Below, in pieces: positions 23,969 through 26,897 of a stretch of 64,000 nt of DNA. The notes under the pieces were generated by a model. That model worked only from the letters and a program-made list of their open reading frames with translations. It did no database searches and was not told the origin of the DNA. Numbering within the stretch: the first letter of the stretch is position 1; the number at the start of each line of letters is the position of its first letter. This DNA is from Flavobacteriaceae bacterium. GTDB taxonomy: Bacteria; Bacteroidota; Bacteroidia; Flavobacteriales; Flavobacteriaceae. A program made the translations under genes and the position numbers. The stretch lies in contig JALQTJ010000005.1 in NCBI GenBank assembly GCA_023264015.1, positions 1 through 64,000 of the forward strand, written 5' to 3'.

Positions 23969-24529
23969 TTAGTATACGAGGCTTACCTCAACCTTAATGT
24001 CGTCTAGGATAAGTTTGTCTCCTAAATCAGAGAAAAATGCTCCTGAGCGAAATTTCACGTCATATTTAGAGCGATCAAACGTCATCTCAGCAGTCATTTT
24101 ATTTGATCCTGCGGCAGTGAAAGTCACGTCTACAGGATTTGTAATTCCTCTAATCGTAAGGTCTCCAGTTGCTGCAAAAGATCCGTCAGCCGACTCTTTT
24201 ACAGAGGTTAAAATAAGATAAGCTGTTTTGAATTGCTCAACTCCGAAAAAATCATCTGAGCTTAGGTGTCCTTTAAGCTTCTCAGCCCATTCGCCTTCTA
24301 AATCTTGAACATCGATAGAAGTCATATCAATCTCGAAAGCGCCTCCAGTTAGTTTTCCATTAGAGGTATTGATAGAACCTGATTTGAAGGTTAAACCTCC
24401 ATAGTGTTCTTTACCAGTGACATCACCTCCGTACCATTTCAGAGAACTCTCTGAGGCGTTAATGTCTTGAGCGTTAATTCCTAGGCTTAAGCCTAAAACA
24501 GCGATAAATGTTAAATAGATCGTTTTCAT
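23969..24529 (-). CDS. YceI family periplasmic protein
   Basis: A 186-residue protein with a signal peptide (MKTIYLTFIAVLGLSLGINA). The YceI lipocalin-like barrel is visible: INASESSLKWYGGDVTGKEH at the start, FEIDMTSIDVQDLEGEWAEK, LSSDDFFGVEQFKTAYLILT, and the late DLTIRGITNPVDV. YceI proteins bind isoprenoid or quinone-like lipids in the periplasm. Its own promoter (TATCTTTG at 24547-24554) and an inverted repeat beside it suggest separate regulation. A second YceI protein is encoded at 25180-25725. Confidence 0.87.
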   Translation of the reverse strand: MKTIYLTFIAVLGLSLGINAQDINASESSLKWYGGDVTGKEHYGGLTFKSGSINTSNGKLTGGAFEIDMTSIDVQDLEGEWAEKLKGHLSSDDFFGVEQFKTAYLILTSVKESADGSFAATGDLTIRGITNPVDVTFTAAGSNKMTAEMTFDRSKYDVKFRSGAFFSDLGDKLILDDIKVEVSLVY

Positions 24530-24616: not shown

Positions 24617-25105
24617 TTAAGCGACTTCTTTTTCAAGAGCCAAGAAGTGCGTAAGCTCTTTTGCAGCATTATAGAGTGGGACAATCTTTACGTCACAAAC
24701 ATAGGCTTCACCATTTTTACGGTGATTAGTGATTTGTGCTGAGAAACTCTTACCTGATTGCAACTGCTTTCTGAACACATCACGATCGGCTTGTTTAGTT
24801 TGCGGACCATGCAGTAACGCGTTTGGCTTTTTGCCAATAATCTCATGACCTTCATATCCAGTCATTTTGGTAAAGCCTGAGTCTACCCAAACCACATTGT
24901 AAGCGCTATCTGAAATAATGTAAGCTTGGTAAGTCGCATAATCTTCTGCCGCTTTCTCAATAGGAGTGATCCACTCAAAGTTTTGGGCCATACGCTGATA
25001 TACCTCTTTGAGATAAGTTCCGTTGAGCTCTCCACAAAGTTTGTGGTACGTCTCTAAAAAGAATTCTCCGGCGATCAATGGCACCGAGTTCGCATTTGTA
25101 CTCAT
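24617..25105 (-). CDS. stand-alone PAS domain protein, LOV-like but without the flavin cysteine
   Basis: I start at 25105 (MSTNANSVPLIAGEFF), giving 162 residues. Residues 15-50 are helical; the PAS fold covers about 55-160 and no output domain follows. AYNVVWVDSGFTKMTGYEGH and GKKPNALLHGPQTKQADRDV match the LOV subfamily in order and spacing (GxNCRFLQGPxT), as does NHRKNGEAYVCDVKIVPL. The photoreactive Cys of NCRFLQ is replaced (NALLHG), so a normal LOV photoadduct cannot form. It might bind another ligand or act in protein contacts. It lies between two YceI genes on the same strand. Confidence 0.75.
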   Translation of the reverse strand: MSTNANSVPLIAGEFFLETYHKLCGELNGTYLKEVYQRMAQNFEWITPIEKAAEDYATYQAYIISDSAYNVVWVDSGFTKMTGYEGHEIIGKKPNALLHGPQTKQADRDVFRKQLQSGKSFSAQITNHRKNGEAYVCDVKIVPLYNAAKELTHFLALEKEVA

Positions 25106-25179
25106 AAAAGGTATTTGGTGTAAATTTAATATATATAGCCGAACAAGCAAACTAACTGCCTGATTTTTAGAGAGAAACT

Positions 25180-25725
25180 CTATTTATAGCTGTTTTGTTT
25201 AAACTTTAGGCTAACCGCCAAATCGATGTTTTCATCGATCGGTTTGAGCAAAAAACGTGGCAATTTAAGATTGAAATCTAAGAGATTGACCTTGAATTCA
25301 CCTGAAATCTCATATAAATTCTCGTGTTCTTGGACCTTAAGAATTATGCGGTATTCTTTACGCAATCCGTTGAGTTCAAAGAATCCTGAAAGTTCAACAG
25401 ATTGAGCATCGATTTCACGGATATTTTCACTGTAAAAGCGCACTTCTGGAAATTTTAGGGCGTTTAACACTCTCAAGGCGTTAGAATCTCTATTAGAACT
25501 ATTCGAATCAAAACTGTTCAAAGGAACGCTAATTGCGATGCGTTGGGGCCCTCCCTCATCACGAATTAGGATCCCTTTTGCGGCGGTTGATACTCCAGAC
25601 CAATCATGAGCTACATGATATCCGCTGTATTGAATAGTAGAACTTTCGAGCGTAAATGAAGATTGGGTGTGGCCCCAAGTCGTCACGCTCACTAAAAGGA
25701 CGAGAAAGAGGTAGAGGTGTTTCAT
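25180..25725 (-). CDS. YceI-like periplasmic protein
   Basis: A 181-residue protein with a signal peptide (MKHLYLFLVLLVSVTTWGHT). The YceI-like pattern is present but divergent: FTLESSTIQYSGYHVAHDW, ISVPLNSFDSNSSNRD, NALKFPEVRFYSENI and LSGFFELNGLRKEYRIIL. Such proteins bind isoprenoid lipids. Its start codon shares one base with the stop of the upstream membrane protein gene (TAATG), and a Rieske gene lies just before that, so the three genes are almost certainly one operon. A carrier of quinone or another polyprenyl compound for a membrane redox unit is a plausible role. Confidence 0.8.
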   Translation of the reverse strand: MKHLYLFLVLLVSVTTWGHTQSSFTLESSTIQYSGYHVAHDWSGVSTAAKGILIRDEGGPQRIAISVPLNSFDSNSSNRDSNALRVLNALKFPEVRFYSENIREIDAQSVELSGFFELNGLRKEYRIILKVQEHENLYEISGEFKVNLLDFNLKLPRFLLKPIDENIDLAVSLKFKQNSYK

Positions 25726-26336
25726 TATTGTTTAAATCGTATGACCACGGTCGCGGCTGCATAGGCTCCGAAAGCTGTATAAGCAGAAGCCCTATGTAAG
25801 GCCTTGTCACGTTCTTTGTAATATTGGGTTGCAATCATGGCCGATAAATGCACGCTGGCTAACCACTTGTGCGCTCGTGCGCCGCTCAGTCCAATTTCTT
25901 TAGAGCTAATCAGCGGAGGTGGTGCGAACAAAGAAAGTGCTGCGCCGGTGAAATAAGTCGCCGTTACTATCCCGCCTAAGGTTTCGTGAGTATCGTAGAG
26001 CGAATAATCTCCATTGTACAGTTGTCCTCCGATGATTCCTTGAGCTACCATCCCAGCCAAGGTCGCATAACCGATAACTTGGTGCACATTGAGCATGGCT
26101 TTTCTCAGCTTCAACTCTTTCATGCGATGCTCCTCGTCTAAATCTGAGATGCCCGTAAGACGCATTACACCTTTTTCACCCCATAAAAGGCGCTGGGTGA
26201 AAAGCATCCGCTCAGGCAACAGGTCGAAAGGAGTCTCTTCAGGGGTGTCGAGCTGAGCAAACAGATCCTCTTGTCCGTAGGCTATCGAAGCCGTGATCGA
26301 TAAAAAAAAGAATAAAAGGATCCCCTTAAATCTCAT
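25725..26336 (-). CDS. four-helix membrane protein with helix-placed histidines (possible b-type cytochrome)
   Basis: I cannot assign a named family. The 203-residue protein has a signal peptide (about 1-21), a soluble stretch to residue 80 and four membrane helices at about 82-104, 116-138, 155-172 and 181-199. Histidines sit in or at the ends of these helices: His85 (NVHQVIGYA), His117 (DTHETLGG), His156 and His163 (AHKWLASVHLSAM) and His181 (LHRASAYTAFG). This pattern resembles cytochrome b561-like haem ligation, but haem binding is inference. The gene is between a Rieske lipoprotein gene (3 bases upstream) and a YceI-like gene (overlapping by one base), which favours an electron-transfer role. 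Confidence 0.7.
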   Translation of the reverse strand: MRFKGILLFFFLSITASIAYGQEDLFAQLDTPEETPFDLLPERMLFTQRLLWGEKGVMRLTGISDLDEEHRMKELKLRKAMLNVHQVIGYATLAGMVAQGIIGGQLYNGDYSLYDTHETLGGIVTATYFTGAALSLFAPPPLISSKEIGLSGARAHKWLASVHLSAMIATQYYKERDKALHRASAYTAFGAYAAATVVIRFKQ

Positions 26337-26339
26337 AGG

Positions 26340-26897
26340 TTATTTGCTTATCGTAAGTTGATTTTCATTGATTGTAGTCGTGTAGCGGGCCAGGTTTCCT
26401 GAGGTTTGCCCTGAAGAGCAATTCGCTGTTCCTCCTTGAGAAGTCCCGTATGAATTTCCGTGATTCCCACAGGTGAATCTACTACTAGAAGCACTAAAAC
26501 TCCAAGAGCTACTTGTACCTGCATGCGGACAACAGTTATCAAAAGCTAAAATTTGGGTGGCAGAAGTACGCAGTAATAGTACACCTGCATCTGTAAAATT
26601 CATCCATCCGCCAACGTTTTTCAGATTGTCAAAGAAGGGGTTTTCAAGGTCTGCAGTAATGGTATCTCCATCGATGATATAGGCCGGAGCATCATTTGAA
26701 GAATCATTAGAAGAGTCGTCAGAAGAGTCGTTTACATCGTCGTTTGAATCCGTAACTCCCGCGGTCTCGATCTCTGAGACACTCTCAGAGGAGCAAGCCT
26801 CTAAAAAGGATACGCCGAATAATGCAAAGGCTACCGTTGGACATACTTTGGTCAAAAATTCTCTACGCTTGTTTTGCTGATCTTCAGTAAGTTTCAT
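26340..26897 (-). CDS. Rieske [2Fe-2S] lipoprotein
   Basis: A 185-residue protein. A basic N-terminus with RRE, a hydrophobic stretch and a lipobox ending at Cys35 (FLEAC) suggest an exported lipoprotein, possibly by Tat since the cluster is inserted before export. A linker of about 22 residues rich in Ser, Asp and Asn follows (49-70). The Rieske motifs are C-P-H (Cys123, His125) and C-G-N-H (Cys143, His146). It would carry electrons outside the cytoplasmic membrane. It is not in a bc1/b6f context: the next genes encode a small His-rich membrane protein and a YceI-like protein. A near-consensus -7 box TATCTTTA (minus strand, 26917-26924) lies 19 bases upstream. Confidence 0.85.
   Translation of the reverse strand: MKLTEDQQNKRREFLTKVCPTVAFALFGVSFLEACSSESVSEIETAGVTDSNDDVNDSSDDSSNDSSNDAPAYIIDGDTITADLENPFFDNLKNVGGWMNFTDAGVLLLRTSATQILAFDNCCPHAGTSSSWSFSASSSRFTCGNHGNSYGTSQGGTANCSSGQTSGNLARYTTTINENQLTISK

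Follow-up and report, generated by a model that had tools for sequence, protein, structure and literature searches.

A Rieske lipoprotein, a histidine-rich four-helix membrane protein and a YceI-family protein as a putative cell-envelope redox module of Bacteroidota

Genes and features of the locus

The window, the whole stretch of 64,000 nucleotides of Flavobacteriaceae DNA analysed here, carries a run of three genes encoding a Rieske [2Fe-2S] lipoprotein, an exported, His-rich four-helix membrane protein (here named mem, a label for this protein of the operon) and a YceI-family protein of the periplasmic lipid-binding type (Table 1). The original prediction had described a tight operon, and the sequence bears this out: the Rieske and mem genes are separated by 3 bases (26337-26339), and the mem stop and the YceI start have one base in common (TAATG). 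Both outer proteins pass the cut-offs of their Pfam families, so that the YceI-like nature claimed for the third gene holds. After the module follow a second YceI gene and a PAS-domain gene, an order kept across the genus (L012-L017, L022).

Table 1. Positions in the window of the three genes, of their diagnostic residues and of the two genes after them.
Feature	Positions	Strand	Details
Rieske [2Fe-2S] lipoprotein gene	26340-26897	-	185 aa; PF00355, 28.1 bits (cut-off 20.3)
Rieske cluster-binding stretch, C123-P-H125 ... C143-GN-H146	26460-26531	-	read from the sequence; motif common to module relatives
mem, exported four-helix membrane protein gene	25725-26336	-	203 aa; presumed b-type haem protein
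mem His85	26082-26084	-	start of helix 1, probably periplasmic side; invariant
mem His117	25986-25988	-	start of helix 2, probably cytoplasmic side; His in 56/63, Lys in 7/63
mem His156 and His163	25848-25871	-	helix 3, spacing always seven residues; invariant
mem His181	25794-25796	-	start of helix 4, probably cytoplasmic side; invariant
YceI-family gene, periplasmic lipid-binding type	25180-25725	-	181 aa; PF04264, 49 bits (cut-off 23.7)
YceI His37 to His40	25606-25617	-	His40 diagnostic of module subfamily
Second YceI gene, without the HxxH signature, and PAS-domain gene	23969-24529 and 24617-25150		after the module

The cluster ligands that had been reported as intact are all present in the Rieske protein (C123-x-H125 and C143-xx-H146), and the CxH...CxxH pattern recurs in every Rieske relative found adjoining the module. 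The N-terminus carries a twin-arginine-like export motif (RREFL) and a lipobox cysteine, Cys35; R11, F14 and C35 are invariant in 31 relatives. Judging from its lipobox, the protein could go to the outer membrane, apart from mem. High-potential Rieske proteins of the bc1/b6f type have an extra, disulphide-forming cysteine in each box (CxHxxC, CxCH); the boxes of the window's protein read CPHAGT...CGNHGN. Its lineage lacks this pair, which is present in many distant relatives (for example L031 and L044).

The YceI protein has a signature of its own. YxxxHxxH occurs in 61 of 62 module YceI proteins and in none of the 30 strongest other YceI proteins of Bacteroidota, which have FxxxHxx[S/T/A/N] instead; module members also carry Pro156 where Asn is common in the others. 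Compared with these 30 best-scoring canonical YceI proteins, the module proteins form a distinct YxxxHxxH subfamily.

Distribution, neighbours and co-inheritance

A search with a mem profile detected the protein in 32 of 395 Bacteroidota genomes; these come from 18 of 171 genera, some in the class to which the window belongs and others beyond it. Within its family, 23 of 299 genomes have mem. The carriers in this family all have small genomes (1.2-2.1 Mb in the family survey, up to 2.5 Mb in another search), which points to streamlined lineages. Eleven further mem loci, taken from named genome contigs, all come from Flavobacteriaceae or other Bacteroidetes assemblies, and a plasmid of Fibrella sp. 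ES10-3-2-2 (CP155472.1) has the trio, annotated as Rieske, hypothetical protein and YceI family protein.

The gene directly after mem is YceI without exception: in 29/29 loci of the phylum survey, 22/22 of the family survey and 11/11 of the genome contigs, the family and contig sets sharing some loci. The two genes mostly overlap or lie 20 bases or less apart. Since YceI lies beside mem in every locus, we rejected chance adjacency; the gene order recurs much more often than chance would give. The expectation that all three genes would occur together elsewhere stood in full for the mem-YceI pair and in part for the Rieske gene: a Rieske gene with the CxH...CxxH motif lies in the operon in 26/29 phylum and 7/11 genome-contig loci, but in only 8/22 family loci. 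In L037-L040, it comes after YceI and not before mem. Where mem and YceI are present and the Rieske gene is not adjacent, 18 of 18 genomes tested encode a Rieske lipoprotein of the same subfamily elsewhere (E<=6.6e-30), while a close Rieske lipoprotein was found in only 5 of 53 genomes without mem, the two groups being unmatched for relatedness. Moreover, the tree distances of the three proteins correlate at 0.68-0.75, against a permutation maximum of 0.17; this agreement is a sign of co-inheritance, not proof of interaction.

We mapped 20 neighbourhoods of the module. No gene family outside the trio recurs in more than four of them, and we therefore take the unit to be three genes; DUF4835 after YceI, considered as a fourth module gene, occurs in only 4/20 and was not counted in. 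No recurrent cytochrome c gene or other acceptor appears in these 20 neighbourhoods. Dps-like ferritin and catalase genes lie beside the trio in the Fibrella lineage, and MsrA and MsrB genes lie upstream of the Rieske gene in L208; these neighbours, seen in only 2/20 neighbourhoods, fit an oxidative-stress role of the module. In L018, the position immediately before mem, elsewhere held by the Rieske gene, is taken by a gene for a SOUL haem-binding protein (L018:7-516).

Rieske lipoproteins related to that of the module also occur in other settings. In most of the Flavobacteriaceae genomes L141-L145, which have no mem, such a protein adjoins a purM-like (AIR synthase) gene, and in L141, L142, L144 and L145 genes for a thioredoxin-7-like protein and an ApbE-like flavin transferase come next (Pfam was run on L141 only). 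The purM-prfA interval holds the mem-YceI pair in other genomes (L058, L063, L065), as if the Rieske/thioredoxin/ApbE set and the pair replaced each other there. A more distant Rieske lipoprotein is flanked by two proteins of about 400 aa in L146-L148, L150 and L152; in L147, the first of the two is a putative peroxidase of the di-haem oxidoreductase family PF06537 and includes a cytochrome c domain.

These partnerships raise the question of a reductase chain in the periplasm that would act on proteins or metals, in which electrons would flow outwards through mem and the Rieske protein to a lineage-specific enzyme, with YceI as a lipid chaperone or carrier. The association of related Rieske lipoproteins with thioredoxin-7 and ApbE, or with the di-haem peroxidase-like protein, speaks for such a chain, as do the MsrA and MsrB genes before the Rieske gene in L208 and the link of Shewanella YceJ-YceI to extracellular reduction (PMC8981235). 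A substrate enzyme recurring with the trio is, however, missing from the 20 neighbourhoods, and we regard the chain as improbable.

Histidines and family relationships of mem

The mem protein consists of a signal peptide followed by four helices. Its nearly invariant Gln22 stands immediately after the signal peptide, as predicted by the Q-rule for signal peptidase I in Bacteroidetes (PMC5837995). Because of this fit, the N-terminal part can be placed in the periplasm together with the start of helix 1, and therefore His85 and His156/163 would lie towards the periplasm, and His117 and His181 towards the cytoplasm. All these histidines are located in or at the ends of the helices, as had been proposed, and their conservation is high: His85, His156, His163 and His181 are invariant in 63 distinct homologues and His117 is kept in 56, with Lys in the remaining 7 (L031-L034, L038-L040), which retain His181. 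Arg59, Arg71, Arg78, Trp52, Pro139 and Pro140 are also invariant in the 63 distinct sequences. The layout of the histidines would leave room for a haem joining helices 1 and 3 and another joining helices 2 and 4, and the conserved histidines are numerous enough for the two bis-His b haems of a cytochrome b561. The proteins with Lys for His117 offer a natural experiment on whether the site towards the cytoplasm requires a pair of histidines.

On the question of family, mem has no family of its own in Pfam or NCBIfam. The sole Pfam match of the window's protein is to PF01292 at 14.1 bits, below the cut-off of 30.1, a value reached by none of eight mem members examined singly. A Pfam search with 47 members returned weak PF01292 matches in 19, PF03188 (eukaryotic-type cytochrome b561) matches in 9 and DUF4079 matches in 10; the bc1-type cytochrome b family is absent from the matches of these 47 proteins. 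Two distant members pass the PF03188 cut-off of 23 (L052 with 29.7 and L049 with 24.9 bits), and mem resembles that family in that each of its four helices has a His close to where it begins; most members are nevertheless below the cut-off, the window's protein has no match to PF03188 at all, and even in the better members the matches span only part of the chain. When 118 Bacteroidota genomes were scanned with PF03188, signal appeared in four, every time inside a mem gene. As a control, ten reversed mem sequences gave no match to these families.

Comparing the mem profile with a local PF01292 set, profile against profile, gave a probability of 1%, and PDB sequence searches with mem profiles gave no match. 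An AF2 model of the trimmed core reached a mean pLDDT of 79 and a pTM of 0.69, from a shallow alignment made up of the window and the named genome-contig loci; the full-length model was poor (pLDDT 59) and its structure matches are meaningless. Foldseek/VIA matches of the trimmed model in the PDB are generic four-helix bundles, so that the fold gave no family for mem; b561 is not among the candidates listed, which proves nothing on the mem fold. Genes of PF01292 are common in Bacteroidota (above cut-off in 64 of 118 genomes; none in the window's genome), and since mem does not reach its cut-off, we rejected an ordinary PF01292 cytochrome b561 at the family level.

Altogether, mem is likely a diverged b561-like haem protein. 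Its matches to haem-b families, obtained in the forward orientation only, favour the haem reading, against which stand the position of the window's mem below every Pfam cut-off and the Lys in place of His117 in one tenth of the proteins. If mem were not a redox protein, its histidines would serve to coordinate metal or to form a site of lipid transfer for YceI, with the Rieske gene as a frequent passenger. Haem binding is a prediction and the model does match generic helix bundles, which leaves some room for this; the Rieske protein is, however, strongly tied to mem (18/18 against 5/53 genomes) and the haem-family matches vanish on sequence reversal, so that we consider a non-redox mem very improbable.

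The invariant arginines recall the E. coli superoxide oxidase CybB, a minimal four-helix di-haem membrane bundle with helix histidines, a positive periplasmic face that serves as an antenna and extra histidines at the quinone site (PMC11869295). By analogy, mem would take electrons from periplasmic superoxide through Arg59, Arg71, Arg78 and haem and reduce membrane quinone, with YceI and the Rieske protein as accessory carriers; the Dps and catalase neighbours in one lineage point the same way. Yet CybB belongs to PF01292, to which mem shows no above-cut-off link, and the two proteins have no family-level sequence match; nor does the paper on CybB describe a YceI or Rieske partner (PMC11869295). 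The Rieske protein would also be left unexplained, and we find a superoxide oxidase unlikely.

Comparison with known systems and proposed function

The nearest known system to the trio is LcoA-BcnA of Burkholderia and other proteobacteria, in which a cytochrome b561 and a YceI lipocalin, encoded in one operon, detoxify lipid-peroxyl radicals; in Burkholderia, lipid peroxides build up in mutants of LcoA and of BcnA, and LcoA has been proposed by its authors to reduce BcnA-bound quinone (PMC9113575). Both systems have envelope parts and a membrane-protein gene directly upstream of YceI in the same operon, although mem is only presumed to be of the haem type. The differences are that mem, unlike LcoA, cannot be recognised as a PF01292 protein, that the trio includes a Rieske lipoprotein and that its YceI protein belongs to the separate HxxH subfamily. 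The analogy to yceJ-yceI drawn in the original prediction is sound for the order of the genes, but YceJ-type proteins pass the PF01292 cut-off and mem does not. The LcoA-BcnA paper mentions neither Rieske proteins nor Bacteroidetes (PMC9113575), and a literature search that covered few subscription journals found no paper joining YceI, Rieske and b561 in Bacteroidetes. The trio may be seen as a variant of the known cytochrome b561-YceI pairs in which the assignment of mem to a b561 family is putative.

A Rieske protein next to a presumed b-haem membrane protein also recalls the cytochrome bc1/b6f complexes. In contrast to these and to alternative complex III, the trio has no cytochrome b family match and no cytochrome c gene, and its membrane part is only 203 aa. 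A bc1-type complex, which pairs a large cytochrome b with cytochrome c1, was rejected, as neither partner was found among the Pfam matches of 47 mem proteins (cytochrome b) or as a recurrent gene in the 20 neighbourhoods (cytochrome c); an NrfD-type gene (a fragment), as expected of alternative complex III, sits elsewhere in the window's genome.

The original prediction saw in the trio a minimal unit for the oxidation of quinol. Spelled out here, such a unit would have mem and the Rieske protein take electrons from quinol, possibly presented by YceI, and pass them to some periplasmic acceptor. The parts that it needs are present and co-inherited: besides the Rieske protein, a membrane protein of b-haem-like character and a protein of the quinone-carrier type, and the cysteine pair typical of high-potential clusters occurs in the Rieske proteins of many relatives. 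Against it, the window's own Rieske protein has no such pair, the 20 neighbourhoods show no recurrent cytochrome c or other acceptor, the genome already has the NrfD-type gene fragment, and His117 is missing in one in ten mem proteins. In LcoA-BcnA, electrons are proposed to travel the opposite way, to a radical-quenching quinone bound by YceI (PMC9113575). The Rieske gene is present in the operon of only 8/22 family loci, and related Rieske lipoproteins occur with other partners. We hold a stand-alone quinol-oxidising unit to be unlikely. Its boldest form would be a minimal quinol-oxidising complex of a new class, with no relation to bc1/b6f or alternative complex III. Menaquinol presented by YceI would be oxidised at the periplasmic face and its two electrons would part, one to the Rieske lipoprotein and one to a b haem of the four-helix mem family; this we think improbable as well.

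The broader claim of a periplasmic electron-transfer module is supported by the conserved helix histidines and by the wide co-occurrence of the three genes. We propose, with a probability of about one half, that the trio is a three-part cell-envelope redox module whose likeliest task, by analogy with LcoA-BcnA, would be to keep envelope lipids and proteins reduced through radical quenching. In this proposal, mem would be a diverged cytochrome b561-like protein of the inner membrane, carrying electrons between the menaquinone pool and the periplasm. Near the periplasmic face, His85 and either His163 or His156 would hold a b haem between helices 1 and 3; near the cytoplasmic face, most members would have a further haem, held between helices 2 and 4 by His117 and His181. 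The YceI barrel is predicted to hold an isoprenoid quinone or similar lipid that mem would reduce, and the Rieske lipoprotein would act as a one-electron carrier alongside both.

The function of YceI is a long-standing question, and most work has been done on proteobacterial cytochrome b561-YceI pairs. The trio would be a phylum-wide counterpart of these pairs, with an unnamed membrane family and with a Rieske protein tied in by gene order and co-inheritance. The Rieske iron-sulphur cluster offers a direct EPR handle on the electron path, and therefore donor, acceptor and direction may be tested with three small proteins.
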